Shown here one piece after another: positions 26,700 through 58,754 of a stretch of 64,000 nt of DNA. The stretch lies in NCBI RefSeq assembly GCF_900095175.1, contig NZ_LT606946.1, forward strand, positions 536,058 to 600,057, read 5' to 3'. The number at the start of each line of letters is the position of its first letter. The first letter of the stretch is position 1. A model generated the notes under the pieces. It saw only the letters and a program-made list of their open reading frames with translations. It ran no database searches and was not told where the DNA came from. The position numbers and the translations under genes are program-made. The DNA is from Polynucleobacter necessarius. Its GTDB lineage: Bacteria > Pseudomonadota > Gammaproteobacteria > Burkholderiales > Burkholderiaceae.

Positions 26700-27506
26700 A
26701 TGGTTCTTAGCCAATGCAATTTTGTAGTCGCGCAGACTGCAGCAAATGCACCCCCAACTGGTGGAAATGTTGTCGCTGGAAGCGCGACAATTTCGCAGAC
26801 TCAAACAGCGAATTCTGCGACGATGAACATCAACCAAACTTCACAACGTGCAGTCGTGAATTGGAATGGTTTTAACGTCGGAAAAAATGCCCAAGTCAAT
26901 TTCAATCAACCAAATGCACAGGCGGTAACTCTCAATCGCGTAACTAGCGCTAGCGCATCGATGATCGATGGCGCAGTGCGAGCAAATGGACAAGTCGTAC
27001 TCGTAAATCCGAATGGAGTGACCTTCGGTAAGGGTGCAGATATCAATGCAGCGGCTGTAGTTGCTACCACCATGAACATTGCAAATAAAGATTTCATGGA
27101 AGGTAAATCAACCTACCGTGGCAATGGCAAAGGGGCAGTTGTAAACGAGGGAAAAATCAGCGTAAATGACCCCAATGGATACATTGCCCTTTGGCCCCAG
27201 AAATTCGTAATGAAGGCTACCTTTTGGCCAGAAAAGGACCCAATAATGGGGTGGCTTTGGCGGCAGGGGGGTAGATTACCCTCGATTTCCGGGGTGACCA
27301 GCTCATTTCGGTCAATGTGGACAAGGCGACCTAACGGGGCCCTGATCGAAAATAAGCGGGTAGTAGAGGTAAATGGGAGTCTGATTGTGGTGGCTGCCGG
27401 ATCCGCTAACCAGCTCATGGGGTCCGTTATTAAGAACACAGGCCGTATTTCAGCCTCCACCATAGTGAACAACGGCGGCGTTATCGAATTGGTCGCCGCT
27501 AAGTGA
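26700..27506 (+). CDS. tpsA1 segment 1: TPS secretion domain
   Basis: After a hydrophobic leader (QCNFVVAQ) the haemagglutination-activity/TPS domain runs to about residue 160: VVAGSATISQTQTANSATMN, INQTSQRAVVNWNGFNVGKN, AQVNFNQPNAQAVTLNRV, then RANGQVVLVNPNGVTFGKGA. It closely parallels tpsA2. Between 27190 and 27341 the displayed frame is the wrong one; restoring one T gives LLAPE-like paralogue sequence, and the correct frame holds TAG and TAA before an extra C returns it to GLIENKRVVEV. Only the N-terminal ~165 codons are read correctly. Confidence 0.85.
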   Translation: MVLSQCNFVVAQTAANAPPTGGNVVAGSATISQTQTANSATMNINQTSQRAVVNWNGFNVGKNAQVNFNQPNAQAVTLNRVTSASASMIDGAVRANGQVVLVNPNGVTFGKGADINAAAVVATTMNIANKDFMEGKSTYRGNGKGAVVNEGKISVNDPNGYIALWPQKFVMKATFWPEKDPIMGWLWRQGGRLPSISGVTSSFRSMWTRRPNGALIENKRVVEVNGSLIVVAAGSANQLMGSVIKNTGRISASTIVNNGGVIELVAAK

Positions 27507-28594
27507 CCCAGGCCGGCACAGTGGCTGCAAATGGCAATGGAGCCAATTCCAAGGGTGGCCAGGTCAATATCGTGGGTGAGAACATCACCTTGGCAGCCAA
27601 TTCCACAACTGCGGCCACGGGTAAAGCGGGTGGTGGTAGCGTTCAGGTGGGCCTAGGAAGAACTCAGGCTACCAACACAAATCAAGCGCCAGTACAGGAA
27701 GTGGCAAAAGTGGCTAGCGCACTCACAACGACAGCAAGCATGGATGCTCGTCAAGCGGTAGCAAAGCAAGTTGCTAGCGTGGCCAGTCAGCAGAAACAAT
27801 TAGCAAAGACAGTAACTGTCGAGAGCAATGCATTAGTAGACACTTCAGCAACACAAACTGGTGATGCTGGAAATATTGTGATTTGGTCAGAAGTAAAAAC
27901 GGCTGTTAATGGGATTTTAAAATCCGTTGGCGGTTTGCTCTCGGGTAATGGCGGCTTTGTTGAAACTAGTTCCAAAGGGACTGTTGCTCTTGGTAAGCAA
28001 TTTACTGTCGATACCAGTGCAACAAATAAAAATAATGGCAAGTCTGGTTTGTGGTTCTTAGATCCAATTGATTTAACCATTGATGCAGATGCGGCCAACA
28101 TCATTGCTGCCGCTCTCTCGAACAATAACGTGACGATTGAAGTCAATGGCAATACTTGCCCAAGCCTTGGTGGCTGTACTCAGAACGGCAGTGGCAGCTT
28201 GACAATTGCAAGTGGCGCCGACATCTTGAAGCAGGGCAATACACTGACAACATTGAAATTAAATTCTTCAGGAATCTTTAATCTCAATGCAAATATTTCT
28301 GGTGAAAATCTTAACGTCATCATCAATAGTTCCATTGCATTCTTGAACGTTGGTACAACGATTAGCGCGTCGCAAGTAACAGTACAAGTGCAAACGGTTT
28401 TTGCGAACGGCACGATCAATGCGTACGGTGCAAGTAATGCATCAACACCATTAGGTGCAGCGATTCAATTACTTGCACAAGCACCCTATGTTTCTGGAAG
28501 ATTGAATGTTGTAAGAAATGTAAATACAAGCAACAACACAAACACGAGCACAAACAGCAACACAATTACCTATAACGGTAGTGTGATTCGTTAA
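27503..28594 (+). CDS. tpsA1 segment 2
   Basis: Continues the helix after a one-base loss near 27502. Contains SKGGQVNIVGENITLAANST, an Ala/Gln-rich linker (VASQQKQLAKTVTVESNALV), and the motif GLWFLDPIDLTIDADAANI that recurs in segment 3 and in tpsA2. A CPSLGGC pair could form a small disulfide loop. The segment ends at an in-frame TAA; the same frame continues in segment 3. Confidence 0.8.
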   Translation: MTQAGTVAANGNGANSKGGQVNIVGENITLAANSTTAATGKAGGGSVQVGLGRTQATNTNQAPVQEVAKVASALTTTASMDARQAVAKQVASVASQQKQLAKTVTVESNALVDTSATQTGDAGNIVIWSEVKTAVNGILKSVGGLLSGNGGFVETSSKGTVALGKQFTVDTSATNKNNGKSGLWFLDPIDLTIDADAANIIAAALSNNNVTIEVNGNTCPSLGGCTQNGSGSLTIASGADILKQGNTLTTLKLNSSGIFNLNANISGENLNVIINSSIAFLNVGTTISASQVTVQVQTVFANGTINAYGASNASTPLGAAIQLLAQAPYVSGRLNVVRNVNTSNNTNTSTNSNTITYNGSVIR

Positions 28595-28600
28595 GAAGAC

Positions 28601-31132: not shown

Positions 31133-32230
31133 ACTACTGGAAGTTATTACTCTTCTGGTATTCATGTTCATCAGGCAATAACAATAACCTCGGCCAATAC
31201 CACCGCTGACGCTATTAAATTAATCGGTAGGGCAACTGGTACGTCGGGCGATGCATGGGGTATGAGGTTTGTTTCAAGTCTGAAGCTGTATGCAACAGGT
31301 GCTGGCGGCGGCATTACCCTGAATTCATCCCAAAATCTTTCCTCTGGCACATACTATGATGTGTATGTAGGTAGTGGTTTTGAAATTCTCGCTAATGGTG
31401 GTGCTATACAGCTGCTTGGTGGTCAAAACAGCGGAACTAGAAATGGATTGCTTTACACAGGAGCCACTTCCTATTTAGGATCGAAAGCATCATCTAGTGT
31501 GGCCACTTCATCAAGCAACATCACAATTTCTTATGATGAGTATGAATTTAATTTTTATACGCCAAAAGTTGCAACTACTGGACAGGTAGCTTGGAAAGCA
31601 GTTGGGGCGGACTTCAAAAGGGCTATGAATACTAGCTGGTTCGACTGGAACCAGAACGGTCAAACGATGACCGGCTTAACTATCGGTAGTGAGACAAACT
31701 CTAAAACAATTACAGTTGGTGCAGCAATATCTGTAAATGGCCCAATCACTTTGAATGGTCCAGTGGTTCTTACCTATGGATTAACAACTAGCAATACAGC
31801 TACGGGGGATATCACAATTGCTGGTTCAACGGTAACTGGCTCGGGAGCAATCTCAATTGCACCTGGAAAAAACCTGACCTTTAATCTTTCAGGAAATGAT
31901 ACTTTTGGCGGAATCATTTCTGGATCTAGTTCAACCTTTACAAAGCAGGGCGTCGGCTCACTCTATTTAACAGATGTCAGCACCTACACCGGAGGCACAA
32001 CGATTAGTGGCGGCTATTTAGAGCTAAACACAACTGGAGGACTGTATAGCTCTGGCAACATTGTTAATGATTCACAACTGGGCTTTAATCAAAATGCAGA
32101 TATAACATTTAGCGGTACCATCAGTGGCACAGGATCCATAATCAAATATGCCACGAACACTCTCACGCTTTCTGGCCTCAATACATATGCTGGCTTAACC
32201 ACTATTTCTGCTGGAACTCTTGCTTGGTAA
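31133..32230 (+). CDS. tpsA1 segment 5
   Basis: In frame with segment 4 across TAA 31130. Contains LKLYATGAGGGITLNSSQNL and the start of the autotransporter-type repeats (LYLTDVSTYTGGTTISGGYL, LTLSGLNTYAGLTTISAGTL). A shift near 32222-32229 breaks it just after the second repeat; the next segment resumes with LGNTAALGA. Confidence 0.75.
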   Translation, partial: TTGSYYSSGIHVHQAITITSANTTADAIKLIGRATGTSGDAWGMRFVSSLKLYATGAGGGITLNSSQNLSSGTYYDVYVGSGFEILANGGAIQLLGGQNSGTRNGLLYTGATSYLGSKASSSVATSSSNITISYDEYEFNFYTPKVATTGQVAWKAVGADFKRAMNTSWFDWNQNGQTMTGLTIGSETNSKTITVGAAISVNGPITLNGPVVLTYGLTTSNTATGDITIAGSTVTGSGAISIAPGKNLTFNLSGNDTFGGIISGSSSTFTKQGVGSLYLTDVSTYTGGTTISGGYLELNTTGGLYSSGNIVNDSQLGFNQNADITFSGTISGTGSIIKYATNTLTLSGLNTYAGLTTISAGTLAW

Positions 32231-35200
32231 TACAGCCGCCTTGGGAGCTACTGCAGCAGGTACTTCTGTTACTGCTGGTGCAGTACTTGATCTAAACGGT
32301 CAGACAATTTCAAGTGAAGAAGCCTTAACCATTAACGGCACTGGTATTAGTAGCGGTGGTGCTGTGATTAATAGCAGTTCTACAGCAGCCTCTTATGCCG
32401 GCCTTGTCACCTTAGGCAGTTCAAGCTCTATTGTCGGCGGTAGTGGCACGATTGCTTTAACAAATATCGGAACCATTGCCGGCGGGAATTATCTATTAAC
32501 ACTTGGCGGTTCAGCTGGTGGCTCTATTTCCTCCATCGTTGGCAATGGTTCCGGTGGCCTTACTAAATCAGAATCTGGAGCTTGGACCCTATCTGGTGTC
32601 AATACATACACTGGTAATACAACTGTTAGCGCAGGTACTTTGACTATTGGTGGTTCTGGTTCTTTAGCATCTGGTGCATATACAGGCACGCTTGCTGTTA
32701 GCTCTGGCGCCACCTTCCAATATTCAAGTTCTGCTGATCAGGTCTTTGGATCTGGTGCAACCGGAATACTTGGCTCAGGGGCTGGAACAGTGTTGCTAAA
32801 TGGCTCAGGAGTGGTAACGATTAATGGCAATAATGCTTTTACTGGAACCTTGAATGTTGCTCAAGAAGTGACGATACAGAATGGAACAAATGATCAATAT
32901 TCTGGATTGGGTTACGCAACTACTATTGAAATATTGAATGGCGGAACTATTTCTATTGCGGGTACGACTTCCAATATATTTATTGGAGTTTCATCTTCTA
33001 CTAATATCATTATCAACACAGGTGGTAAATTAACCAGCACTGCTTCAACGAATGCTACGTTCCACTTAAAAACTATTACCTTAGCTGGCGGTGAATTAGC
33101 CTGGGCTAATCCAACTTGTATGTCAAGCGGGGAGTGTGCACAGTATGGCACTTGGATGCTTGATTCCACAGTGACCCTTACCCAAGACTCTACAATCAGC
33201 GCACAAGGCATCACTCTCAACGGATCTGGTGGCAATACGTTCAATGTAGCCTCCGGAAAAGAGCTTACCATGACCGGTAGTTTCTATAAGGCTGGCTACG
33301 GAAATGACAATGGATTTACGAAGTCTGGCTCTGGAACAATGGTTCTCAATCCTACGGGTAGCTACCATACGTACGTCGGAAATACTGTAGTAGCCGCTGG
33401 TACCCTGAAGCTTGCTACTGCAAATGCATTGGGCTCTACAGCGGGTAATACCTCGATTACATCTGGCGCTGTACTCGATCTCAATGGTCAAACAATTGTT
33501 AATGCTGAGGCATTAACAATTAATGGCACTGGTATCAGTAGCGGTGGTGCCGTGATCAATAGTAGCTCTACAGCAGCCTCTTATGCAGGCCTTGTTACTT
33601 TGGGTAGCGCAAGTTCTATCGTTGGTGGTGCAGGATCAATTGCCTTAACTCATAGCGGCACCATTTCAGGCACCTACGGCTTAACTTTAGGTGGTGCGGC
33701 GGGCGGATCTATCGCTTCAATTATTGGCACTAGTACTGGCACCTTAACGAAAGTAGACGCAGGTACCTGGACTTTGACTGGCGTAAATACCTTCACGGGA
33801 AATACCACTATTTCTGCCGGTATTCTAAAAATTGACGGCTCTGGTTCATTAAGATCCGGAAATTATGCTGGCAATATTTCCATCGCCTATGCTAATAACG
33901 GTACTTTTGAATACGCTTCAAGTGCAACACAAACCTTATCCGGGATATTGAGCGGAACTGGTTCACTCACTGTTTCTGGAACTGGGGCGCTAACTCTTAC
34001 TGGAAATAATAGTTACTCTGGAACTACTACGGTTAATAGTGGCAGCACTCTTAATTTAACGCCATCTTCACTTGTTGATACGACTCTAAGTGGTAACTTT
34101 GTTAACAATGGCACAATTAATTTCGATGGATCAAATGGGGAAGATGCTGGAGTCGGTAGTACAGCCCTATATGTTGGCAATGCATCTGGATCAGGCCTAT
34201 GGAATATCACCAGCGCGCAAAATCCAAGCACTTGGAATAACCGTTTCGTGTTCTATAAGGATGTCACTACGAACGGACAAATTACTGTTAACAACTACGG
34301 AAACTTATGGCTTGTTCCTGGTTACAGCACAACAGCAGTTAATTCAACTTCGGCAATCAATCTCAATGGCTCTAATACATACCTACGTTTATATGGTCTA
34401 GAAAATGCGGTCATAAAAGTGGGAACGCTCACTGGAAATGGTAAGGTCGATTTTTCAGATGGCGGTGGTGGAAAAGCACTTACATTAGCAGTTGGAAATG
34501 ATGACGGAACGGGTACTTTTAGTGGCGTCATTTCAAACTCTTGGGTCGCTAACGGACCAACTACGCTCTCATTGCAAAAAATTGGAAGTGGTATTCAAAC
34601 TCTATCTGGTGCCAATACCTATACTGGCGGAACTGGCGGAACTTATGCAGGTGCCATTACCCTAGGTAGCGATTCCTCTATCGGAAGCACATCAGGCGAA
34701 ATTTCTATTACCGGCGCTATTGATGCTACTGCGAATAATTACGGTTTAGCGCTAGTGGGTGATCAAACAATCACCATGAGCAATGCCGACAATGCCTTAA
34801 GAACCATTGCCTCTGGTTCTTCATTGGGTGCTCTGACTATTGTCAATGCTGGAGATCTAGAAATTGGAGCTGTAACGGCAGGGGGTAGCACTTATACCGG
34901 ACTGGACTCTACAGGCCTAATTTCAGTAAAGACTACGGGTGATTTGACGATTTCACAGAACGTGGCAACAGTCAGCACTTCAGCAACAGCTTCTGCACCA
35001 GCGTTACTCTTGGCTGCTGGTTACGATCAGGCTGCAGGAATGACCACTAAAAATATCAAACTCAGTGGCTCTCCAACATTTACCGTCGGCTCCGGTGGAA
35101 TCGCTGACTTCTATTCAGGTGATACCGATGGCAGCACTGGCTTATCGACCTATATTGGTACGAAGCCTCTAAAGTCCTATACATATAGTGCGGATATCGA

Positions 35201-38200
35201 TAATCAACCAACCGCAGTTGGCTATAACGTCATTTATCGTGGTGCTCCACCATATATCTATTTGACGATTGTGGATGATCAAACTGGCACCTATGGCACA
35301 GCTTCTGCTCTCAGCTATTGGTACTCCACCAGCCCAACCTTGTACGGTTCAGATTACTTACCATCTTCACTCTCTGCATTTGATTCTGCTCAGATATTTA
35401 CCGCAGAGCAGAGCACCATCAATATTAGCTCTGGTGATCTTAGTGGTACTATCACGATTACATCGAATTCATTAAATGCATTGACTGCATTAACCTCTAC
35501 CACCAATGCGGGGACTTACAGCCTGTCACTTACTCCAATACTGACATTGTCTGGATCAAGCGTCACTTTTGTTGCTGGAACAGCCAAGAATTTCGTAGTT
35601 AATCCAAAAGCACTCAATATCACCATCTCCAAAACCTATGATGGCAATACATCGTTTACTAAAGACAATACCTACGACTTAACTGGTATGGCTAATAGTG
35701 AGAGTGCTCCTACTATTAGCTCAGGTGCCGCAACACTTTCTAGTCCGAATGTGACTTCAAGTGCAGCAACTGCATTTTTGACAAATAGCCTTGCTTTAAA
35801 CAATAGCAACTACACCTTAACGGGTGGAACAATTAGCGCATCGATTTCTCAGTTGTCTTCTGTGACTTATAGCAGTGCTGCAGGTGGTGCATGGTCTGAT
35901 GGCGCTAACTGGACAGTGACAGGCGGGGTAGCAACGGGCGCAACTCCAACCCTGGCAAACGTCGCGACTGTAGTGATTCCGGATGGCTATTTAGTATCGT
36001 ATGGCGATGCCATGGCTGGCCTTGCTCCAACCAGCGCAGTTGGCATTACGAATAATGGCGGTATTAGTTTTGCTAATACTAGTGCGGTAACCATGCCGGC
36101 GACCATTAGCGGTAGCGGTACTGTTACCATGGCAGGCTCTGCTGCACTTACCCTAACTGCTAGTAATAACTTCACCGGTGCAACTACGGTTGATGCGGGC
36201 GCCACTCTCACATTAGGTGTCGCCAATGCGACATCTAGCAGCTCAGCTTTAGTGCTTAATGGAACCCTCGATTTAGCTGGTTACTCAACTGCTGTTGGTT
36301 CCTTAGCGGGCGATAATGCTGGTCTAGTTACCAGCACTGCAAGCGGAAATCCAGTATTGACTGCTGGTGGTGATGACACTAGCACCACTTATGATGGTGT
36401 CATTCAGAATGGTTCTGCATCAACTGTAGCCTTAACTAAAGTCGGTACCGGCACCTTAACTCTGTCTGGCACGAATACGAATACCGGTGTTACCAGCATC
36501 AATAGTGGTGCGATCAGCGTTGAAGATGACGTCAACCTGGGGGCTGCAAGTAGCATAGCAGTCAATGCGGGTACCTTGATTATTGCTGGCACAGGAACCT
36601 TTACCTCTGCAAAAGATGTCACCCTCAATGGTGCAGCCACTATCAATAACACCAACACTGCGAATGCTTCTACATTCAGCGGTAACTTTACTAATGGCTC
36701 TAATTTATTGACTATTAGTGGAGCAGGTAACACCATCCTCTCCGGAATCATTGGAAGTGGCAGTGGCGGTCTTACTAAAGATGGTAGTGGCACCTTAACC
36801 TTATCGAACTCCAACACCTATACCGGTGCGACTACCGTTACAGCCGGTACATTCAGTCTGTCAGGATCTGGTGCTATTGAAGATTCCTCTTCAGTAGCAG
36901 TAACAGGGACATTTGATATTAGTGCAGCAACTAGCGGTGCATCGATCACTACCTTGTCTGGTGCTGGTGGGGTCAATATTGCTGGTAAAGCCTTAACGAT
37001 TACTAACGGTAGCACGACGTATTCTGGCGTGATGACTGGTTCATCTGGTACCTTAACCATCTCTGGAGGAACTCAGATTTTCTCAGGGGCTAATGATTAC
37101 ACCGGAACAACGACTGTCTCTGGCGGCATTCTCAGATTGACTGGCTCTGGTACCACAGGTGCCGCTGGTAATAACTTAACTTTGTCTAGCGCTGGTACCT
37201 TGGCCATGGTAGATGCGGACTTGGTGGTGAATGATCTGAGCTTGGCAAGCGGTGGCGTCATTTCAGCACCATCAGGCTTGTCTACCTTGACTGCAAATGG
37301 AACTAGCTCCATTGCCGGCACTATTACTACCTCTGGCAACCAAAGCTATGTTGGCGCAGTGACCTTAACAGCAGATACCACGCTCGTTAGCGGCAGCGGC
37401 AATATTACTTTTGGCTCAACTATTAATGGCACCACTGCGAATACAGAATCATTAACCTTAAATGCTGGCAGCACAGGTCTCATTAGCGTTGATGGCTCGG
37501 TAGGATCAACAGTAAGTCTCCAGAACTTAACTATTACTAACTCAGGTGGTGTGACATTTAGCGACGCAGTGATCGTTGGAACGGAAGTCATTTTGACTAA
37601 TACGGCGAGTGCTCAAACGATTGCTTTCAATGCCGGGCTTACAACACCGACCTTAACAACTACATCTAATCCATATAACGTCAAAATTGCTGGTGGTACA
37701 AGCACTATTACTAGCGCACTGACTTTCTTAAATACTGGATCCTTGCAGCTTGGAGCTTCGTCTAGTGATAGTTTCATTGTCGTTAATGGATTGACAGCAA
37801 ATGTGCAAGTAGGCGGAATTAGTTTGGCTGGAACGATTTCTAGTGGTGATGAACTTGAGCTTGGTGCATCTAATGTTGCAATTACTTTACTAGCTGCGAC
37901 TACTTTAGACACTACCAATGTCGCTTCAGCCGGCACTCCTACAACCACTACCTATACCTCCGACACATCATGGGTTGTGCCAACAGGAGTGACAACGATT
38001 GCTGTAGACATGGCAGGTGCTCAGGGTGGTGGTACTAGTGGTGGCTTGGGCGGACGCTTACAGGCATCTAGTGTTTCAGTGACAGCAGGATCCACGTTAA
38101 ATATTTATATCGGCGGAGCCGGCTCTTCAGGTGTTGGTGGGTCTGTAGCTGGTGGTGCAAATGGCGGCGGTGCCACTACTAATCCAGGCAATGCCACAAA

Positions 38201-39443
38201 CCTTAACTCTGGTTCAGGCGGGGGTGCAACTGATATTCGCCTAGGTGGAACATCATTAAGTAATCGCATGTTGGTTGCCGGTGGTGGTGGCGGTCAGGGT
38301 GGATATGACTCAAGTCTTAGCAGTACTCCTGCGGCCGGAGGAGCGGGTGGCTTATTGATTTCTGCCAATGGCGCAAATGGAACTTCGGGTGGACACGGTG
38401 TGAGCACTGGTGGCGATGGAGGCTCGCAAGTCGCCGGCGGCGATGGTGGAACTGCATCACTTTATGGTGACAATGGTTCATCTGGATCAAGCGGTTTAGG
38501 TGGGGTTGGTGGCGATTCCTTAAATTGGACTATTTATGTTGGCGGCGTTGGAAATGTCCAAACATGGGGTCAGTCTGGCGGCGGCGGAGCGGGTTATTTT
38601 GGCGGCGGCGGTGCAAGTAATAACTTGTACGGACCCAATTGGGGTGGAACTGTTGGAGTAGGCGGTGGTGGCGGCTCATCCTATGCTGATGGTACCTATG
38701 CATCGGGCATCACTAATACAGCTGGATATCAGGCAGGTGCTGGATATGCCACGATCACTTACAGTGCTGCAGGTAATAAAGCTGCTAGCTCCATTCGTTT
38801 GGCGGGGGCAATTAACGGTACTTTTGCTCTTACGACAAATAGTGGCACTGAATCCACTACTACAGCTGCAATTGGTCAAAGCACGGCAGTTGCCAGTTAT
38901 AGCTCAACGGGAGCAGGTACAAATGTGATTGGCGGTAGCGTCGCTACTACTGGTGCGCAGTCTTACACAGGGCCAGTCACTATCTCTGGTGCGACACGGA
39001 CATTAAGTTCTAGTGCTGATGGCGCAATTTCACTTCCTGCAGTAAATGGTGCAAATGGCTTAATTATTAGCAATGGCAGCGGGGCAATCAACCTAGGTAC
39101 AGTAGGTGGCAGTACACCGTTGACTTCTTTGACCCTGGAAGGCACAGGCCTGAATACTTTAAGTGGTGACATCGATACTACTGGAGCGGTGGACCTAAAG
39201 GGAACTTCACGTCAAACTACGTTTGCAGCGAACCGCACAATCACCACAACCAATGGTAGTGGTAATGGCGACATCACCTTAGGAACTACGAATAGTGCTT
39301 ACAGTCTGACACTCAACCCTGGTAGCGGCACTGTTGCATTGAATGCCGTTGGCGTGACTGCCGATGGACAGTCTGGTGTGCCGCTGGCCGCATTGACGAT
39401 TACTGGTACCGGTAGCAAAGCTCAACTGGTGATGTCAATTTAG
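32220..39443 (+). CDS. tpsA1 segment 6: repeats, MBG/YDG domains and Gly-rich domain
   Basis: Longest undamaged piece, 2407 residues. Autotransporter-type beta-strand repeats fill most of it, including two near-identical copies of AVINSSSTAASYAGLVTLGS (about 32360 and 33550). An MBG-like domain (about 35170-35600, GTYGTASALSYW) is followed by a YDG domain (about 35605-35860, ISKTYDGNTSFTKDNTYDLT). Near the end (about 37950-38775) is a domain matching the glycine-rich ligand-binding module of ALK-type receptors: SWVVPTGVTTIAVDMAGAQG, then GGGATDIRLGG and RMLVAGGGGGQGG. A lost base near 39421 ends the frame. Confidence 0.8.
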   Translation: MLGNTAALGATAAGTSVTAGAVLDLNGQTISSEEALTINGTGISSGGAVINSSSTAASYAGLVTLGSSSSIVGGSGTIALTNIGTIAGGNYLLTLGGSAGGSISSIVGNGSGGLTKSESGAWTLSGVNTYTGNTTVSAGTLTIGGSGSLASGAYTGTLAVSSGATFQYSSSADQVFGSGATGILGSGAGTVLLNGSGVVTINGNNAFTGTLNVAQEVTIQNGTNDQYSGLGYATTIEILNGGTISIAGTTSNIFIGVSSSTNIIINTGGKLTSTASTNATFHLKTITLAGGELAWANPTCMSSGECAQYGTWMLDSTVTLTQDSTISAQGITLNGSGGNTFNVASGKELTMTGSFYKAGYGNDNGFTKSGSGTMVLNPTGSYHTYVGNTVVAAGTLKLATANALGSTAGNTSITSGAVLDLNGQTIVNAEALTINGTGISSGGAVINSSSTAASYAGLVTLGSASSIVGGAGSIALTHSGTISGTYGLTLGGAAGGSIASIIGTSTGTLTKVDAGTWTLTGVNTFTGNTTISAGILKIDGSGSLRSGNYAGNISIAYANNGTFEYASSATQTLSGILSGTGSLTVSGTGALTLTGNNSYSGTTTVNSGSTLNLTPSSLVDTTLSGNFVNNGTINFDGSNGEDAGVGSTALYVGNASGSGLWNITSAQNPSTWNNRFVFYKDVTTNGQITVNNYGNLWLVPGYSTTAVNSTSAINLNGSNTYLRLYGLENAVIKVGTLTGNGKVDFSDGGGGKALTLAVGNDDGTGTFSGVISNSWVANGPTTLSLQKIGSGIQTLSGANTYTGGTGGTYAGAITLGSDSSIGSTSGEISITGAIDATANNYGLALVGDQTITMSNADNALRTIASGSSLGALTIVNAGDLEIGAVTAGGSTYTGLDSTGLISVKTTGDLTISQNVATVSTSATASAPALLLAAGYDQAAGMTTKNIKLSGSPTFTVGSGGIADFYSGDTDGSTGLSTYIGTKPLKSYTYSADIDNQPTAVGYNVIYRGAPPYIYLTIVDDQTGTYGTASALSYWYSTSPTLYGSDYLPSSLSAFDSAQIFTAEQSTINISSGDLSGTITITSNSLNALTALTSTTNAGTYSLSLTPILTLSGSSVTFVAGTAKNFVVNPKALNITISKTYDGNTSFTKDNTYDLTGMANSESAPTISSGAATLSSPNVTSSAATAFLTNSLALNNSNYTLTGGTISASISQLSSVTYSSAAGGAWSDGANWTVTGGVATGATPTLANVATVVIPDGYLVSYGDAMAGLAPTSAVGITNNGGISFANTSAVTMPATISGSGTVTMAGSAALTLTASNNFTGATTVDAGATLTLGVANATSSSSALVLNGTLDLAGYSTAVGSLAGDNAGLVTSTASGNPVLTAGGDDTSTTYDGVIQNGSASTVALTKVGTGTLTLSGTNTNTGVTSINSGAISVEDDVNLGAASSIAVNAGTLIIAGTGTFTSAKDVTLNGAATINNTNTANASTFSGNFTNGSNLLTISGAGNTILSGIIGSGSGGLTKDGSGTLTLSNSNTYTGATTVTAGTFSLSGSGAIEDSSSVAVTGTFDISAATSGASITTLSGAGGVNIAGKALTITNGSTTYSGVMTGSSGTLTISGGTQIFSGANDYTGTTTVSGGILRLTGSGTTGAAGNNLTLSSAGTLAMVDADLVVNDLSLASGGVISAPSGLSTLTANGTSSIAGTITTSGNQSYVGAVTLTADTTLVSGSGNITFGSTINGTTANTESLTLNAGSTGLISVDGSVGSTVSLQNLTITNSGGVTFSDAVIVGTEVILTNTASAQTIAFNAGLTTPTLTTTSNPYNVKIAGGTSTITSALTFLNTGSLQLGASSSDSFIVVNGLTANVQVGGISLAGTISSGDELELGASNVAITLLAATTLDTTNVASAGTPTTTTYTSDTSWVVPTGVTTIAVDMAGAQGGGTSGGLGGRLQASSVSVTAGSTLNIYIGGAGSSGVGGSVAGGANGGGATTNPGNATNLNSGSGGGATDIRLGGTSLSNRMLVAGGGGGQGGYDSSLSSTPAAGGAGGLLISANGANGTSGGHGVSTGGDGGSQVAGGDGGTASLYGDNGSSGSSGLGGVGGDSLNWTIYVGGVGNVQTWGQSGGGGAGYFGGGGASNNLYGPNWGGTVGVGGGGGSSYADGTYASGITNTAGYQAGAGYATITYSAAGNKAASSIRLAGAINGTFALTTNSGTESTTTAAIGQSTAVASYSSTGAGTNVIGGSVATTGAQSYTGPVTISGATRTLSSSADGAISLPAVNGANGLIISNGSGAINLGTVGGSTPLTSLTLEGTGLNTLSGDIDTTGAVDLKGTSRQTTFAANRTITTTNGSGNGDITLGTTNSAYSLTLNPGSGTVALNAVGVTADGQSGVPLAALTITGTGSKAQLVMSI

Positions 39444-42400: not shown

Positions 42401-43120
42401 GCAATTAACGGCGGTGCGATTACTACCTCTGGTGCGCAAACTTATAACGATGCTGTAACTTTAGGTGCTGATACCACCTTGAATACCACTAACAGCAATA
42501 TCGTTTTTGTAAATACTCTTAATAGCACTACCTCAGCTCGTGCCTTAACAATCGGCGCAGGCTCAGGCACAGTAACTTTTACTGGCACCGTAGGTAATAG
42601 TCTGGCTTTAGGTGCAACCAACATTACTGCAGCGACCACTACAAATATGACTACCCTGGTCGGTAGCGGTGTATATGCCACCACGGGTAATGCTGTTGTA
42701 AATGGTACTATTACCGGAGTAACAAATTTATCGGTCTCCGGCATAACAGCGATCGGCGCAAATATTACTACCAGTGCTACTCAGCTCTATAGCGGGGCAG
42801 TGACTCTAGCCACCAATACAACATTGGCTACGACAGATAACAACGTCACCTTCAGCAGTACCCTTAATAGTAATAATGCTACTCCTAAGACCTTAACCAT
42901 TACTGCCGGTGGCGGAACAGTGACTATGAACGGGGCAGTAGGGGATGCTAATGTCCTAGGCGTCACCACGATTACTGCATCCGCCTTCACAACCGGCTCT
43001 TCTGGCACGATTGCTATGGGTGCTAATGCTCTCCAATTAATACTGACGTTATCAGTCTGGGGGCGGCACTTGGTGGCACATCAACCCTGGCAATTGCACC
43101 TAGGACAGCAAGTACTATGA
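39444..43120 (+). CDS. tpsA1 segment 7: repeats with PA14-like domain
   Basis: Resumes with NLGSGRATTIASSLTIGSGS after the shift at 39421. Beta-strand repeats surround a globular insert at about 41605-42100 that resembles a PA14/GLEYA carbohydrate-binding domain: GGLIGEIFIGYFADNL, VSYKGYFLATTTGSYTFYTN, SDDASYLWLG, VAGNYYPLLSYFGENGGGDG, IIISFTPPGG. Ends after a lost A near 43034. Confidence 0.78.
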
Positions 43121-46100
43121 TTGGTCTAGGTAGCTCCATTACTTCCACCTCTTGTGGTGGGGCAGCTTGCTCATTGGCTCTTGATGATGTTGAATTAGGG
43201 CGCTTGGCTGATGGCTTTACTTCAATCACGATTGGTAGCACGTCTGGCACCGGCGCAATTGCCATTAACTACACTACGCCATACACCTTCTTGGATCCAG
43301 TAACGATTCAAAGTAAATCTACCTCAGGCGGTGGATCCATTACTGCTACTAGCACACTTGCTAGTGGTGCTAATAACATGGCCATCAGCACATACGGAGC
43401 TGTCTCTGTAGCCGCTATTACTTCTGCTGGCACCCTGGCGATTACTGGTAACGGTATTACCTTAAATGGTAATATCACTACTAGCAGTACACAGGCCTAT
43501 ACCGGGGCGGTGACATTGGCAACCGGCGACATTGAGCTTACAGGAACCAGCGCTACCTTTAGTACTACCGTAACAGGGGGCGCTAATGCTTTGGCGATTA
43601 CTGGTAATGCAGTATTTAACGGCTCACTTTCCAACGTCACTGATTTGTCAGTGTCTGGTACTGCAGCTATCAATGCATCTAGCATGTCCACAACTGGCTC
43701 TCAATCCTGTACAGGTGCAGTTACAGCTTCAGTGGCTACAACTATTACAGCAAGTGCATTGACTACAGGCTCAACGCTAGCTGTTTCAGCCAATAACTTA
43801 ACCCTGTTGGTTGATGCAATTACTTTAGGTGGAAATTTATCGGGTACCGGCGCCTTGGTGATCGTGCCAAAGACACTTAATAGAGATATTTATCTGGGTT
43901 CAGCAGATAATTCCGCATCCGCTGTTTTAAATCTGAAATCTACAGATATTGACTATCTGGTAGATGGATTTAGCTCAATCCTTATTGGTGGTGCAGGCTA
44001 CTCTGGTTCAATTGCCTCACAGGGTAATACAAGCTTTAAGGACCCAACTACCTTTACCTCATCCTTCGCTTTCACGTTGAGCCATAATTTATTGGCCACA
44101 GCATCCACCAATGCTTCATTCACCGTGGGTGGTTCATTCACTTGGAATGGTGGAGATATCACCACCGGCACAGGTGTTGTAACTCTGAGCGGTGATATGA
44201 CTTTGGGCGGCAGCGGCACTCGTACATTAAGCACTACAAGCGGCATTGTTACGATTGGTGCATCAACAGCTAATACCGTTACTGGTAATGCGGCCAGCCT
44301 GACTCTAAATAGTGGATCAGCCGCAACCAACGTTTATTCAACAATCACCGGTGTGAATGTTTTAGGTTTAGGTACTAGCGGTCAAAGTGGCACCATCACT
44401 CTCAATGGCGCATTTACCACGACCTCTATTGCAACAGGTGCCGCTGCCTACTCCCTCGTCTTTAATGGTGGAGACTCCGGCATATCAACGGTAACTGATG
44501 CTGCTACATTTGCAAATACCAGCGCCTTAACTCTGGGTAATCAAGCTGGCGATATTTTCGTCTTTACAAGTGGCCTCACAGCAACTGCACAGTCCACCGT
44601 GAATTTGGCTGGCGCAATTAGAACGGCAGGAACTGCATTGAGCATTGGTAATGGCAGCACCACTACCTATCTTTCTGCAGATACAGTAATTGACACTACA
44701 AACAATGGCGCAAATTCAGCTGGCGGCGCCATCGCATTGGCTGGATCAGTAGTAAACGTCAACGGCACTTCCGCAGCGTTGGCATCTGGCTGGACTAATG
44801 GCACAGCTTACAGTCTGGGCGTTTGGGGAAGTGTGATTGGTATTTACGGGCAGGGTGGTGAGATCTCTCGGACCTTCACTTTAGGTGGAGCTTCCACTAC
44901 CTTGAACTTTAATTTCTATCGTCTTGATTTATGGGATGGTGAGAGATTCCAAATTTATGCTAACGGCGTTCTCATCGTTAACCAGCAATTCTTCTGCTCA
45001 GAACTTGGTAGCCAATATTTCTTGAGCCCTCCTATTACCGGCACCTCTAACGGCTATAGCTGGACCATTACTCCGGTAGCGGGTGATTCGAATCTCAATA
45101 TGGTTGCCCAAAGCTGGACTGACCAACGCTTTACTGTCGCCTTAACAACACCTAGTGGTTTGGCTTCCGTTCCACTTCGGTTTACCTCTACTTTAGACCA
45201 AGGTAATACCGATGAATCCTGGGCTGTTTCTGGATTCTCATCTGCCATCACTTCTAACGCTGGTCTAACCTTGAATTCTGGCGCTGCTGCAATTAGTGCT
45301 AGCACAAACTTAGGTTCTACCGGCTCCTTAAATTACCTCACTGTTACTAATTCAGGTGGTGCAACATTCTCAGGCTCAGTAAGCGTAGCCAATGCAAGCA
45401 CAGTGTCTAATACTGCTTCAGCAGCAACGGTTGCGTTTACAGGTGGCTTAACTACGGGTTCTTTAGTTACGACTGCTAACCCATACAACGTGAGCATTGT
45501 TGGTGGCTCAAATACGATTACGTCTGCAGCCACATTCCTCAATACTGGCTCCTTAACCTTGGGCAATCTTTCTTCTAGCGCAATTACATTTAGTGCTGGT
45601 CTGACAGCTACCGCTCCAACTACCGTTAACTTAGCGGGCACTATCACTAGCAATGGCCCAGTTACCATTGGCACATCCAGCACCGGCATCGCATTAACTG
45701 CTGCAACCACTATTAATACATCCGGTGGTTCAAGCGCTGCGAATAGGGCGCTTACTTTAGCGGCTCCTCTGACTGGCGACAATATTGCTCTGACATTGAC
45801 TTCGGGTACTGGTGTGATCACTACCGCAGCGATGGGTACTAGCGGCCACGGCTTAGGCGCATTGATCTTTAATGGTGATGAATTTAATCCGACTGCGGAT
45901 GTTTATGGTCAGTCCACTTTGGTAGTCAAGCCATACACTAGTGGTAATACGATGGTAATTGGCGGGGAAAATAATAATTCCGATACTGTGTTGAATTTAA
46001 CCGCAACGGAGATTGCCTATCTTAAGGACGGATTTACTGGAATTACTATCGGATCCTCCACTACTGGTCAGATTACCGTTTCTGCTGAATTGAACGTAGT

Positions 46101-47401
46101 TGATCCATTGGTTATTGATACCAATGGCGCGAACATCTCTGTTGGCGCCGATATGAGGGCATCTGATAATGGTACATTTACTTTCAATGATCCAGCGGTG
46201 ATTTCCGGTAACGTCACTATGATCACGGCTGATCAGGCTCTCTCATTCTCTAGCAACCTCAATGGAACTACTGCAGGTGCTGAGAATTTGATTCTTAATA
46301 CTGGCAATGCCAATATCACCTTCAATGGTTTGGTTGGAAACGTAACGCCTCTAAACGTGATCTCACTGGATAGCTCTGGAACAATTACGATTAATCAACC
46401 CGTCACTAGTAACAGTATTCTGACTGGTACTGGCGGTACAACCGTGATCGACACCCCAACAATTTCCACCGTTGGCACACAGTCCTTTAACAATGCTGTC
46501 TTGATTAAGCGCAATACAATTTTCTCAACCACTAATAGCAATATTACTTTTAATGGAACAGTTAATAGCTATGACAATGCCTCCGCAAGAACAGTAGGAA
46601 TTGATGCGGGTACGGCTGCGGTAGCTATTAACGGGGTGGTAGGGGGCACTAATGTTCTAGGTGCCACCATTATTACAGGCGCTTCGTTCTCTATAGGTTT
46701 AAACGGCTCAATTGCAATGGGGGCTAATGCGATCTCCATTACGACGGATGCAATTAGTCTAGCTGGAGCGATATCTGGCACTTCAACACTCACCATCGCC
46801 CCTAGGACTGTTACGACTACTATCGGTCTCGGAACAACTGCTACAGGATCATTGCACTTTACCGATACCGAGCTCAGTAAGTTAAGCGATGGATTCTCAT
46901 CGATTACATTCGGTTCGCCTACCGCAACAGGCAAGATTACTGCTGCTGAATACACCTATCTTGATCACATTAAGTTGTTGAACTACGGTTCTAGCAGCAG
47001 CGGTATCGAATTTATTGGCGCTGTCAGTGTTGGCGTAAACAATCTGACTCTGTACACCACTGGTCCAGTCACTCAATCTGCTGATATTACCGCCGCTGGT
47101 CTTGAGCTCCTCGGTACTGGCGGTACTTACACCTTAACCAATACTTCTAATGCCATTACTACCTTAGCCGGTAATACAGGAACAATCTCTTTTTTGGATG
47201 ATGGTGGATTTAGCGTTGGCACAGTAAGTAGAGTAGGGGTCACCGCCTCAGGAACAGTCACGCTAGCTAGTGCCGCCAACATTTCTCTTGCTAACAACAT
47301 CACCACCACTGGCGCACAGACTTATAACGGTAATGTGGTCTTGGCTGCAAATACGACCTTAGCTACTACTAATAGCGATGTGAGTTTTGGTGGAACATTG
47401 A
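41339..47401 (+). repeat. 109-bp near-identical repeat within tpsA1
   Basis: 41339-41447 and 47293-47401 differ at only two positions, with the first 78 bases identical. Codes for TTTGAQTYNGNVVLAANTTL. The high nucleotide identity between copies 6 kb apart indicates recent duplication or gene conversion. Confidence 0.8.
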
Positions 47402-48078
47402 GAGGTGATACTGCAGGTCGTACCCTGACTATTGCTGCCGGTACTGGTGCAGTAAGCTTCACGGGTGCAGTCGGCACTACTTACACGCTAGGCGCTACTG
47501 CCATTACTGCGGCGACCGTAACCAATAGCTCTACTTGGATCGGTAACAGCACTTTAGGCATTACTGGTAACGCCGTAGTCAATGGCGCTATCTCAGGCAT
47601 TACTACTTTGAATATCTCTGGTAATACGAGCCTTGGCGCTAATGTCACTAGCTCAAGCACTCAAACTTATACCGGTGCGGTAACCATCACTGGTTCTACA
47701 GTGACTGCAACTACTACCAATAGTGCTGTCATGTTCGCCTCAACCGTCAATAGCGCTGCTACTGCCGCTAAACCATTGACTGTCTCTGCTGGCTCTGGCG
47801 CAGTGACCTTCACCAGTGTTGTAGGCGGTGCTACTGATGGTGTGCTTGGCGCCTTGACTGTTAACTCTACTGCTACAACTACCTTTAGTGCTGCTGTCAC
47901 TGCCGCTTCTGTGACAACAGACGCTAGTGGTACTACTGCAATCAACGGTGGTGCGATCACCACCTCTGGTGCACAAACTTATAACGAAGCCATCACTTTA
48001 GGTGCTGCTACCACCTGTCAGCATCAAGCATTACTACTGGCTCCACCATCACCGGCGGCAGCAATGCAATTACTCTAA
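43117..48078 (+). CDS. tpsA1 segment 8: repeats with a lectin-like insert
   Basis: Begins IGLGSSITSTSCGGAACSLA. Contains several copies of a module with the core EL..L.DGF.SITIGS..GTG (about 43170, 43920, 45980, 46850). An insert at about 44760-45250 has the texture of a beta-jelly-roll (LNFNFYRLDLWDGERFQIYA, NGVLIVNQQFFCSELG, TDESWAVSGF), possibly a glycan-binding or LamG-like domain. One lost T near 48016 breaks the frame. Confidence 0.75.
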   Translation: MIGLGSSITSTSCGGAACSLALDDVELGRLADGFTSITIGSTSGTGAIAINYTTPYTFLDPVTIQSKSTSGGGSITATSTLASGANNMAISTYGAVSVAAITSAGTLAITGNGITLNGNITTSSTQAYTGAVTLATGDIELTGTSATFSTTVTGGANALAITGNAVFNGSLSNVTDLSVSGTAAINASSMSTTGSQSCTGAVTASVATTITASALTTGSTLAVSANNLTLLVDAITLGGNLSGTGALVIVPKTLNRDIYLGSADNSASAVLNLKSTDIDYLVDGFSSILIGGAGYSGSIASQGNTSFKDPTTFTSSFAFTLSHNLLATASTNASFTVGGSFTWNGGDITTGTGVVTLSGDMTLGGSGTRTLSTTSGIVTIGASTANTVTGNAASLTLNSGSAATNVYSTITGVNVLGLGTSGQSGTITLNGAFTTTSIATGAAAYSLVFNGGDSGISTVTDAATFANTSALTLGNQAGDIFVFTSGLTATAQSTVNLAGAIRTAGTALSIGNGSTTTYLSADTVIDTTNNGANSAGGAIALAGSVVNVNGTSAALASGWTNGTAYSLGVWGSVIGIYGQGGEISRTFTLGGASTTLNFNFYRLDLWDGERFQIYANGVLIVNQQFFCSELGSQYFLSPPITGTSNGYSWTITPVAGDSNLNMVAQSWTDQRFTVALTTPSGLASVPLRFTSTLDQGNTDESWAVSGFSSAITSNAGLTLNSGAAAISASTNLGSTGSLNYLTVTNSGGATFSGSVSVANASTVSNTASAATVAFTGGLTTGSLVTTANPYNVSIVGGSNTITSAATFLNTGSLTLGNLSSSAITFSAGLTATAPTTVNLAGTITSNGPVTIGTSSTGIALTAATTINTSGGSSAANRALTLAAPLTGDNIALTLTSGTGVITTAAMGTSGHGLGALIFNGDEFNPTADVYGQSTLVVKPYTSGNTMVIGGENNNSDTVLNLTATEIAYLKDGFTGITIGSSTTGQITVSAELNVVDPLVIDTNGANISVGADMRASDNGTFTFNDPAVISGNVTMITADQALSFSSNLNGTTAGAENLILNTGNANITFNGLVGNVTPLNVISLDSSGTITINQPVTSNSILTGTGGTTVIDTPTISTVGTQSFNNAVLIKRNTIFSTTNSNITFNGTVNSYDNASARTVGIDAGTAAVAINGVVGGTNVLGATIITGASFSIGLNGSIAMGANAISITTDAISLAGAISGTSTLTIAPRTVTTTIGLGTTATGSLHFTDTELSKLSDGFSSITFGSPTATGKITAAEYTYLDHIKLLNYGSSSSGIEFIGAVSVGVNNLTLYTTGPVTQSADITAAGLELLGTGGTYTLTNTSNAITTLAGNTGTISFLDDGGFSVGTVSRVGVTASGTVTLASAANISLANNITTTGAQTYNGNVVLAANTTLATTNSDVSFGGTLRGDTAGRTLTIAAGTGAVSFTGAVGTTYTLGATAITAATVTNSSTWIGNSTLGITGNAVVNGAISGITTLNISGNTSLGANVTSSSTQTYTGAVTITGSTVTATTTNSAVMFASTVNSAATAAKPLTVSAGSGAVTFTSVVGGATDGVLGALTVNSTATTTFSAAVTAASVTTDASGTTAINGGAITTSGAQTYNEAITLGAATTCQHQALLLAPPSPAAAMQLL

Positions 48079-55345: not shown

Positions 55346-56718
55346 GTGGTGCAACAACGGTATCCGCTGGCAGCCTCCGTATTGCCCATGCTGACGCTTT
55401 AGGCGCTACCATCTCAGGAACTACCGTTGCTTCCGGAGCCATGTTAATTCTCGATGGTGGCGTATCCGGCATTACTTTTGCTGCTGAAGCATTAACCATC
55501 TCTGGTTCTGGTATTGGCTCGGCTGGTGTAATTCATAACTTGGCTGGTGACAATACCTTGGCTGGTGCAAATACTTTGAATGCCAATTTTGTTGTGACAA
55601 CAGCCAATGCTTCAAGCCCATTGCGCTTTACTGGAACTATTAATGGCGCATATGACCTCACTATTAATAGTGAGGCGGATGTTCAGCTCAATGGCGTAGT
55701 TGGTGGATCGGCTGCATTGGCATCGATCACAACTGATGCTGATGGCCGTACTTTAGTTGGGGCCAATATCAATACTGTTGATGCTCAGCTCTATAACGAT
55801 GAAGTAGTAGCTTCAGGTGCAATTACCTTCACATCAGCAGGAATCACTTCTAGCATTACTAACATCCTGACTGGTCGCACAAGTGAGTCATTCTATGCAA
55901 CATCTTCAGGCAGCTCACCAAACGGTGAGTCTGCCCGTAAAGCATTTGATGCAAATGTTGATAGTAAGTATCTAAACTTTGCTAAAGCCGGTTCCGATGT
56001 GTTGATTGATGCAGGAACTTCCTACGTAGTGACTGGACTAGGCTTGAGCACCGCAAATGATTCTAATGGACGCGATCCCGCAAGCTATAGCTTGTATGGA
56101 TCTAATACAGCATTTGTAATTACTCAATTAACTAGTGGAAATGATAGCAATATTGCTAGCGGTGGACTGCCTGATGCAGTATTGATCTCGTCTGGCTCAC
56201 TTGCTCCGCCAACCGATCGTAAGACTGCTTACCCTACGATCTCATTCAGTAACTCCACAGGTTATCGTTACTATCGTCTAGTCTTTGACACCATTAGAGC
56301 TAGCGGTTCCGATGCGATGCAGGTTTCTGAGATCCGCTTGCCAAGTCAATCTAGCAGCGGCTCTGGATCTGCAATTACCTTTGCCCAGAATCTGACAGTA
56401 AATAACAATGTCACTATTAGTTCAGCTGGCACTGTCACTGCGGCTAATATTCAAGTTAGCGGTACGCTGAGTATTTCCAATGGAGGTTCTGCCTCTGTGA
56501 CCAGGGCTATTGGTGATGGCTCTTCTGCTGCATCACTAGTGAAGTCAGGATCCGGCACTCTGACCTTGTCTGGTCCAAATACTTACACCGGAACAACTTC
56601 GGTATCTGCAGGTACTTTAGCCTTGGGTGCAAGTAATGTCATCGCCGATGCATCAGCAGTCACTGTAAACGGCGGTACTCTTGCACTAGGTTCTTACTCT
56701 GATACGGTAGGGCTGTGA
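55346..56718 (+). CDS. tpsA1 segment 13: discoidin-like insert
   Basis: Resumes SGATTVSAGSLRIAHADALG. An insert at about 55850-56350 resembles an F5/8 type C (discoidin, CBM32-like) domain: SARKAFDANVDSKYLNF, VVTGLGLSTANDSNGRDPAS, YSLYGSN, YRYYRLVFDTIRASGSDAMQ, VSEIRLPS. Such domains bind sugars or lipids. Ends after one lost G near 56711. Confidence 0.75.
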
Positions 56719-58754
56719 TTATCGGATCATCAGGTGGTTCAATTACCAGTACTACTGGCGTCCTCACAGGTTCTAGCTACACCTTCAATAACACTAGTGA
56801 TGCCACGATCTCTGCGATCTTGGCTGGTAGTGTCAATCTGACTCAAGCTGGTAGCGGCACAACAACGCTCTCAGGCACCAACACCTACACCGGCACAACA
56901 ACACTAACTGGTGGCACTTTATCTATTTCTACTGATGCCCAGTTGGGGGCTGCTCCATTAGGTGCCAGCCCAGAATCTATCGTCTTTAATGGAGGCACTT
57001 TAAATAACACTGCAAGCTTTACTCTTAATGCCAATCGTGGTGTTGCTATGACAGGCGATGGCATTATCAATGTTAATGACTTAACAATGCTGACCTACAA
57101 CGGTTTGATTGCTGGCCCTGGAGATCTGACGAAGAGTGGGGCTGGCACACTCATTTTGGGTGGAATGAATACCTATACTGGCTTGACTAATGTGTTAGCG
57201 GGAACACTAACAGTGGCTGGTAGCTTGGCTGACACCTCTGCCATTACTGTCGCAAGTGGTGCAACATATAACGTAGCAAGTGCAGATACAGTTTCTACTG
57301 TATTGGGATCGGGAGCTATCAATTTAGGCGCCAATCTGACCGTAGGTTATGGAGATAATAATTTTGTATTTAGTGGGTCATTCGCTGGCGCCGGTTCGCT
57401 CATCAAGATTGGCTCAGGCTCGATGACTCTAGCTGGAAATAGCTCTACGTATACCGGAAACACAATCTTAAATTCTTCAAGCTTGGTCTTGAATAATGCG
57501 AATGCCTTGGGCTTGAGCACCGTAATTTCTAGTGGAGGTTATTTACAACTGGCTGACGGTATTGTCCTATCTAGATTGCATGTGACTGGCCCAGTAACCA
57601 TAACAAGTCACATTATGACTACGGGGGATCAAATCTATGATGGTGCAGTTAGTATTGTGCCAGCTGCTGGTTTGATAATTGATATTGTCAATTATGACAA
57701 TCAATCGATCTCACCAGCTGGAGTTGAGCTGAGCGCTTCTAATGGCAATATCACGCTTAATAGCACTATTGATGCTGTCAACGCTAAGAGTGCTTCGCTG
57801 AAGATTTCAGCCACTTCGGGAGCGGTTGTGATAGGTGACAGTGTTGGCTCAATCACGCCATTAGAGAATCTCTATGTCGTTGGTCAAAGCATCAGACTCT
57901 TGGCGGATGTATTAACTGGGCAAGAGCAAACCTATGTTGGCGCTACCACGATTGGTAGCAATGGTTCCGCTGGATTCCTGTATTCAGAATTCGTCAGAAA
58001 AACTCGCCCAGCAACTACTTTTGCGATCCAAGACCCACTATATACACGCACCTTCATTTCTATGGACCCTACAGTGCGATTTGTTGGTAATGTCAATCCA
58101 GATACCACTGGAATCTATTCTTTGGTGCTTGCGGCTATCTATGATGGATTTGTCAATGGAGATCCAGCAAAAGAGCCTAGGATCATTGTTGATGGTTTGG
58201 TTGGTAACCTCAATCCGTTCTACTCAATTAATTTCCAAACCCTACGGGCTGGAGATCTATTTATGTTGGCTGGAAAAATCAGCGCTATGGGTGTGAAGAC
58301 CATAGCTGCTCAAAATTACAGCACTGACGCCATGACGGTCAGTTTAGATTCAGTTAACTCCGTGGCAACATTTAGATCATCTCGCCCAGGAACCATTAGT
58401 TTTGACTTGAGCATGGTTGACGGTCAAATGAATATGGGCTCAGCTACAGGTGTGACAAGGGTCATTATTGATGGTTTAACAAACCTTACTGGAAGGGGAG
58501 TGGGATTGGCAGCTGTTGGATTCCCAGTTCAAGAGACGGCCGCAGTCGCTGCTGCAGCCGCTGCGGCAGGAGGTGGTAATTTGACTGCCACAGCCCAATT
58601 TGGCAAACAATTTGTCATGAATAGAGACTTATCCGATGCCTCGAGTGTGAGTGTTGTTATGGATGAAAATATACAAGACCCCGGGTCAGATAATAATCAG
58701 CTAAAGAAAGCTCTTAACTGTAGAGAGGAGCTGGATAGCCCTGAATGCGGTTGA
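56715..58754 (+). CDS. tpsA1 segment 14: C-terminus
   Basis: Last repeats, then a non-repetitive C-terminal region (about 57560-58500) without beta-helix periodicity. An Ala-rich linker (ETAAVAAAAAAAGGG) leads to a final 60 residues ending KKALNCREELDSPECG. The two Cys nine residues apart just before the end recall the disulfide loop that anchors HMW1 to its transporter. The next gene starts within the last ten bases. Confidence 0.8.
   Translation: MIIGSSGGSITSTTGVLTGSSYTFNNTSDATISAILAGSVNLTQAGSGTTTLSGTNTYTGTTTLTGGTLSISTDAQLGAAPLGASPESIVFNGGTLNNTASFTLNANRGVAMTGDGIINVNDLTMLTYNGLIAGPGDLTKSGAGTLILGGMNTYTGLTNVLAGTLTVAGSLADTSAITVASGATYNVASADTVSTVLGSGAINLGANLTVGYGDNNFVFSGSFAGAGSLIKIGSGSMTLAGNSSTYTGNTILNSSSLVLNNANALGLSTVISSGGYLQLADGIVLSRLHVTGPVTITSHIMTTGDQIYDGAVSIVPAAGLIIDIVNYDNQSISPAGVELSASNGNITLNSTIDAVNAKSASLKISATSGAVVIGDSVGSITPLENLYVVGQSIRLLADVLTGQEQTYVGATTIGSNGSAGFLYSEFVRKTRPATTFAIQDPLYTRTFISMDPTVRFVGNVNPDTTGIYSLVLAAIYDGFVNGDPAKEPRIIVDGLVGNLNPFYSINFQTLRAGDLFMLAGKISAMGVKTIAAQNYSTDAMTVSLDSVNSVATFRSSRPGTISFDLSMVDGQMNMGSATGVTRVIIDGLTNLTGRGVGLAAVGFPVQETAAVAAAAAAAGGGNLTATAQFGKQFVMNRDLSDASSVSVVMDENIQDPGSDNNQLKKALNCREELDSPECG

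Follow-up and report, generated by a model that had tools for sequence, protein, structure and literature searches.

In two-partner secretion (TPS) systems, a TpsB pore protein binds the TPS domain of its TpsA cargo and threads the chain outward, and a C-terminal cysteine pair anchors HMW1 and HxuA in their pores (PMC3297439 and PMC5422565, both in part). Within the genus Polynucleobacter, the giant gene region (GGR) of P. asymbioticus carries a gene of up to 42 kbp (PMC5644125, in part); the main text of that report is without the terms adhesin, filamentous and hemagglutinin. The species name P. necessarius was introduced for bacteria that live as obligate endosymbionts in Euplotes, and the genome is described as having many pseudogenes (PMC5018217, in part). 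Here we analyze a 64,000-nucleotide stretch of P. necessarius DNA, hereafter the window (NZ_LT606946.1, positions 536,058 to 600,057 of a single-contig genome of 1,907,709 bases), which carries a giant TpsA gene, tpsA1, in decayed form.

The locus resembles the GGR in holding a very long gene in the same genus, and the two are likened by genus and length, not by slot. Unlike that region, it is decayed and has a second giant gene and a broken pore gene beside the first. With HMW1/HMW1B and HxuA/HxuB it shares a TPS domain, a ShlB-type pore and the C-terminal cysteine pair (PMC3297439 and PMC5422565, in part). It differs from them in the PATR and PA14/GLEYA-type modules of tpsA1 and in the PPIC isomerase and two small genes of the locus, and anchoring of its product is presumed by analogy. 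We consider it very probable that a giant two-partner-secretion locus is seen here at a late stage of losing its function. The decay spans a locus of about 54 kb (pore gene, one partner gene and two cargo genes) and is wider on both sides than the interval 26700-58754 to which the sequence-only reading assigned it. Giant genes in the genus (PMC5644125, in part) and pseudogenes in its symbionts (PMC5018217, in part) are already published, and the present case is a clear new example. The new elements are the locus-wide decay, its apparent recency, a separate break in a second lineage and the pseudogene-rich genome. No publication on two-partner secretion in Polynucleobacter was found in the literature covered, outside which most subscription papers lie, and the TPS reading may be published.

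The features of tpsA1 are as follows.

26700..58754, + strand: tpsA1, giant two-partner-secretion exoprotein gene, decayed, about 10,670 codons with about 16 lesions
26793..27488, + strand: TPS secretion domain PF05860 (E 1.6e-30, 106.6 bits; TIGR01901 adhes_NPXG E 1.4e-22)
27189..27335 (approximate limits), + strand: mis-framed stretch of the TPS domain between two cancelling frameshifts, from comparison with relatives
32220..39443 (7,224 bp), + strand: longest open piece, 2,407 aa, with PATR passenger repeats (PF12951 E 5.1e-37, 9 stretches)
41747..42070, + strand: PA14/GLEYA-type lectin-like domain (GLEYA E 3.2e-13, PA14 E 2.1e-10; residues 758-865 of its piece)
43117..48078 (4,962 bp), + strand: second longest open piece, an open reading frame of 1,653 aa
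56715..58754, + strand: C-terminal piece with PATR repeats and cysteines at the 11th and 2nd residues from the end

The gene, about seven times the length of HMW1, consists of 13 consecutive open segments of at least 100 amino acids on the + strand, with two more nested inside. A frame path was scored by codon log-odds with a table trained on four of the long open tpsA1 pieces. It joined the segments into 10,670 codons with 16 lesions (12 shifts and 4 stops) at penalties of 10 and 12; over penalties of 8 to 20 the count ran from 18 at penalty 8 to 13 at penalty 20. In the control, the intact 8,603-codon gene of relative G018, no lesion was found with its own codon table, and with the window's table none apart from two at the lowest penalty. 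The sequence-only reading had given fourteen open segments, about 10,700 codons and about 17 lesions (5 nonsense, 12 indels). The rejoining into one path, the length and the 12 shifts stand, while the segments number 13 and the lesions 16, with 4 stops. The two open pieces of 7.2 and 5 kb that it reported were found at 32220-39443 and 43117-48078.

PF05860 scored above cutoff in both giant genes, and among the tpsA1 pieces the TPS domain match lies in the first only. In that piece, residues 165-212 (about 48 residues of the TPS domain) are now mis-read: they do not line up with the three relatives used for comparison, while both flanks align closely, and the relatives match a reading of this stretch that carries stops. 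Two cancelling frameshifts are hidden in the TPS domain, and because they keep the piece open, a plain scan for open reading frames overlooks them. PATR and autotrns_rpt repeats were found in the passenger. Compared with intact orthologues, tpsA1 carries multiple disabling lesions, as a pseudogene does. The identification of the gene as a giant TpsA in ruins is therefore upheld by the TPS domain above cutoff, the passenger repeats, the single frames in relatives described below and lesions that resemble real mutations; the sequence-only reading was right in substance and near in its numbers.

Relatives carry intact giant frames of 12,076, 10,153, 9,629, 8,603, 8,410, 6,668, 6,437 and 5,796 amino acids. 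Pieces 1-4 of tpsA1 are collinear with the single frame of Polynucleobacter sp. MWH-Jannik1A5 (L029), which ends with its contig at residue 3,191, with a shift of 43-48 codons; piece 4 matches weakly (30%). Part of piece 6 (joined codons 2636-3190) matches the same frame at 73% identity with an offset of 9 codons, and piece 5 has solely a repeat-like match to it, about 450 codons out of register. The joined chain tracks a 6,457-aa frame of P. brandtiae UB-Domo-W1, which runs off its contig end, as far as about codon 4,600, where stretches of 60-74% identity alternate with unmatched ones, and weakly beyond. The last piece has its best match in the C-terminal region of the intact G018 giant (34% identity); the rest of tpsA1 has partial, repeat-like matches only, and its middle is highly variable between species. 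The comparison of the joined protein with related Polynucleobacter, which the sequence-only reading had proposed as a check, thus gave single frames with collinear pieces, and separate short genes as the orthologues were rejected since relatives carry uninterrupted single frames. In a side observation, relative G005 (C3:212833-249063; L082-L084) has the intact 12,076-aa TpsA frame next to another of 8,410 aa. The claim that tpsA1 is among the longest bacterial genes is generous given the intact 12,076-aa frame of a relative and the published 42 kbp gene (PMC5644125, in part).

It is extremely unlikely that each piece works as a gene of its own, or that programmed frameshifting or readthrough of stops joins them. 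In favour of this explanation, several pieces form long open stretches, and selection on codons can still be seen. However, relatives carry single frames, the TPS domain needed for secretion is present only in the first tpsA1 piece, the pore gene is broken too, and at the one break compared the place and size of the lesion differ from those in the second P. necessarius record, PPGSP2.

The remaining broken members of the locus, and the two intact genes among them, are the following.

22465..24261, + strand: tpsB, ShlB/FhaC-type outer-membrane pore gene, three frames with two frame changes
24297..25139, + strand: PPIC-type (SurA-like) peptidyl-prolyl isomerase gene, intact, 280 aa
25136..25664, + strand: orf176, orthologue of a 176-aa partner gene, broken into three frames
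58763..59353, + strand: orf196, short gene between the two giants, intact and conserved (the listed open reading frame starts at 58745)
59582..64000, on to genome position 612805, + strand: tpsA2, second giant exoprotein gene, decayed, 17.2 kb in 5 pieces

The sequence-only reading of a ruined giant gene stood, and it had missed the pore, the partner gene, the second giant and the breakage of 11 of 122 sampled genes elsewhere. The three tpsB frames match residues 30-136, 123-347 and 348-578 of the TpsB of relative L027, in which POTRA_2 and ShlB lie in one 578-aa frame; the linked TpsB with POTRA domain and ShlB/FhaC barrel is thus a single gene there and broken in the window. The frame path placed 2 lesions on tpsB. 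The two ShlB matches of the genome are both pieces of the broken tpsB, and no intact TpsA cargo or TpsB pore was found elsewhere in the genome. Relatives of tpsB at E 1e-30 or better were present in 76 of 186 genus genomes. In 47 genomes the best TpsB match had at least 60% identity: 43 have one open frame, two are cut by a contig end (G028, G180) and two are broken (this genome and G129), in a tally counted from the listing with G141, whose two matches share one 600-aa frame, taken as intact. The isomerase (PF00639 E 2.2e-15) matches that of L027 in one frame at 87.5% over 280/280 residues with no stop. The three orf176 frames match the orf176 of L027; this gene is a single frame in L027, L028, L029 and G036 and two frames in PPGSP2.

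On tpsA2 the frame path found 4-6 lesions. Joined codons 638-5,721 are collinear with the intact 5,796-aa frame of G024 (65-78% identity, offsets of 57-83 codons), and no match on that frame was found before codon 638. The first piece aligns over its full length with the 9,629-aa frame of G036 (63%). The first 637 codons match G036 and G018, and the remainder is mostly nearest to G024. tpsA2 looks like a mosaic between species. Its last piece (L042:3287-6805) has four stretches of MBG_2 (YGX) domain, of which the tpsA1 pieces have none.

The ratio of nonsynonymous to synonymous substitution rates (dN/dS) against L027 was 0.067 for the alignable decaying stretches and 0.063 for nadA, nadC and the isomerase. 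Synonymous distances were near saturation for several pairs. In the decaying stretches, the branch to this genome carries 57.7 amino-acid and 162.3 silent changes, and the branch to L027 42.1 and 161.9. Since selection at the codon level is almost undisturbed, the inactivation looks recent, and nearly all of this genome's branch would have been lived under selection. The dN/dS comparison proposed by the sequence-only reading is thus in line with recent decay and gives no significant sign of relaxed selection.

The locus of P. necessarius PPGSP2 (L030, LT606947) is alike in slot, gene order, a split orf176 and a pseudogene-rich genome, with both cargo genes in many pieces. It is unlike in that TpsB is one frame, the isomerase and the 196-aa gene carry one stop each where those of the window are intact, and the TPS domain is broken at another place. 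The TPS-domain breaks are about seven codons apart and of different size; common inheritance of this lesion was rejected, and at least that lesion therefore arose independently in PPGSP2 and here.

As a genome-wide control, the proteins of MG-27-Goln-C1 (G008) were compared with sampled genome stretches. Here, 11 of 122 orthologues were broken, with 9 frame changes and 4 internal stops among them. In G024 the figure was 2 of 164 (Fisher p 0.0026 for the difference from this genome) and in PPGSP2 19 of 146, with 4 frame changes. The two broken G024 genes have single stops near the counting limits and 0 frame changes. Stops were counted between 10% and 92% of the gene only, a rule chosen after the loose count had been seen; the frame changes (9 vs 0 in G024) are untouched by it. 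With stops counted anywhere and a smaller reference, the figures were 9/77 here vs 8/93 in G024 (p 0.61) and 12/81 in PPGSP2, after a first 6/46 here; in six of the eight loosely counted G024 genes the stops lie near gene ends only, where starts and stops vary between species. The 10-92% rule on the smaller reference gave 7/77 here vs 2/93 in G024 (p 0.08) and 11/81 in PPGSP2. From the larger sample, matches at stretch ends (13 here, 13 in G024, 15 in PPGSP2) and partial matches (2, 1 and 3) were set aside, and genes with stops only at their ends (3, 7 and 2) were counted as intact. The 11 broken genes encode two MFS transporters, a DctP solute-binding protein, an amidohydrolase, ApbE, a hybrid sensor kinase, an M16 peptidase, a FAD oxidoreductase, a ThiD-like kinase, a FolP-like pterin-binding enzyme and a DUF6352 protein.

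These data bear on the explanation that the breaks arose through faulty sequencing or assembly of a giant gene that is hard to assemble and that the locus is functional, which we judge improbable. The alignable genes hold 15 non-triplet indels. Eleven of these are single-base, as errors would be, and the genome is frame-shifted elsewhere too; however, 11 of the 15 lie away from homopolymers of at least 4, stops occur as well as indels, tpsB and orf176 have 2-base events, and two control genes have insertions of 13 and 26 bases. Orthologues of at least 93% identity were mostly spared (2/71 broken vs 9/51 of the less conserved, p 0.008), although conserved genes were less spared in PPGSP2 (10/104 broken at this identity). 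The lesion rate of tpsA1 is 5.1 times the control rate, and PPGSP2, an independent record, is broken at a different place in the same locus. Uniform error does not easily give this pattern, and sequencing error is unlikely as the main cause. Misassembly driven by repeats is less likely as well; tpsA1 has some exact repeats (39 repeated 40-mers), its tandem repeats are few and short, and long exact repeats are few.

Several points nevertheless weigh against the loss of the locus as we describe it. Homopolymers of at least 4 hold 4 of the 15 indels vs 3.4% of positions, an excess expected from slippage or error alike; single lesions may therefore be wrong, and some of the indels may be sequence errors. 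Much of tpsA1, chiefly past about codon 4,600, is without a close one-to-one orthologue, so that the order of the pieces there rests on codon signal and frame. The excess of amino-acid changes on the branch to this genome (57.7 vs 42.1) is not significant (Fisher p 0.17), and no relaxed selection is demonstrated. The break in the FolP-like gene fits host dependence and would fit error equally.

The pseudogene-rich genome suggests a host-associated lineage, as expected of a ciliate endosymbiont; PPGSP2 is counted as a symbiont solely by its species name. The excess of broken genes elsewhere, mostly of transport, sensing and metabolism, suggests that the lifestyle changed recently, most likely towards a host, which would have ended the need for the locus. 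The losses of transport, sensing and biosynthesis genes fit the same direction as in P. necessarius symbionts. The FolP-like (L043:16572-17438) and ThiD-like (L044:8791-9673) genes are both broken, hinting at dependence on outside folate and thiamine; a FolP-like enzyme is usually required by free-living bacteria. We tentatively propose that loss of the giant TPS island may be an early and repeated step as free-living Polynucleobacter become host-bound, in which pore, partners and tens of kilobases of cargo would decay jointly, with separate instances in two lineages or more. If this is true, the length of tpsA would make it a fine-grained clock, with more than 10,000 codons gathering countable lesions before ordinary genes do.

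It is also conceivable that the locus is not being lost but serves as a silent reservoir from which giant genes recombine and gain variation by exchange, and we regard this as highly unlikely. The giant gene region of P. asymbioticus is a replacement-type genomic island with recombination at its borders (PMC5644125, in part), tpsA1 differs greatly between species in its middle part, and tpsA2 looks mosaic. However, tpsA1 and the in-window part of tpsA2 have no common 20-mer, and no intact cargo or pore was found elsewhere in the genome.

In its functional state, the system would have placed a beta-helical filament on the cell, anchored by a C-terminal cysteine loop as in HMW1 or HxuA. The giant frames are cysteine-poor, and 7 of 9 (all but G032 and G026) have a cysteine pair among their final 19 residues; such a pair also stands at the C-termini of tpsA1 and tpsA2. 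By analogy with HMW1, it would probably become stuck in the pore and tether the filament there. The isomerase of the locus plausibly assists the chain across the periplasm, and the beta-repeats with the PA14/GLEYA lectin-like domain make adhesion or cell-to-surface contact the likely use. With tpsB, orf176, tpsA1 and tpsA2 all broken, nothing would be secretable from the locus as designed. A CdiA-type toxin of contact-dependent inhibition (CDI) was considered and rejected; no toxin domain was found in the last pieces of tpsA1 and tpsA2 in a search of Pfam alone. The gene after tpsA1 is orf196, whose 196-aa family is seen beside giant tpsA genes in four other genomes (G018, G024, G036 and PPGSP2). 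The family gave 95 matches, of which the five with a species name are all Polynucleobacter, and no Pfam family scored above cutoff.

The role of giant surface proteins in freshwater bacteria is poorly known, and their length is enough to make these proteins costly. Because relatives keep the system, a lineage that has recently lost all of it is a natural knockout, which could link the function of the giant protein to a particular lifestyle. tpsA1 also records how a very long gene breaks down, and it is a warning to annotators, since piecewise reading gives about two dozen short genes.

The genus name Polynucleobacter is borne by 9 of the 10 related loci, and the slot itself is conserved. From left to right the window holds nadC and nadA on the - strand, split tpsB, the isomerase gene, split orf176, tpsA1, orf196 and tpsA2; its left border is

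20315..22352, - strand: nadC and nadA, left border of the giant-gene slot

These two genes are at the same position in L027-L030, and nadA also lies left of the slot in G018, G024 and PPGSP2; in G036, where the stretch compared ends inside tpsB, it was not seen. The right border consists of three conserved genes (81-94% identity) that flank the same slot in G018, G036 and G024; in PPGSP2 two of the three were found, one being cut by the stretch end. Between nadA and tpsB, L027 and G018 have a 473-aa histidine kinase gene (L027:4276-5694) that may regulate the locus; it had no match in the window and was lost here or gained there. The breaks in orf176 of this genome and of PPGSP2 fall at nearly the same residue (about 96-105), with the two indels here at homopolymers of 6 and 7, and this site may be a mutational hot spot.

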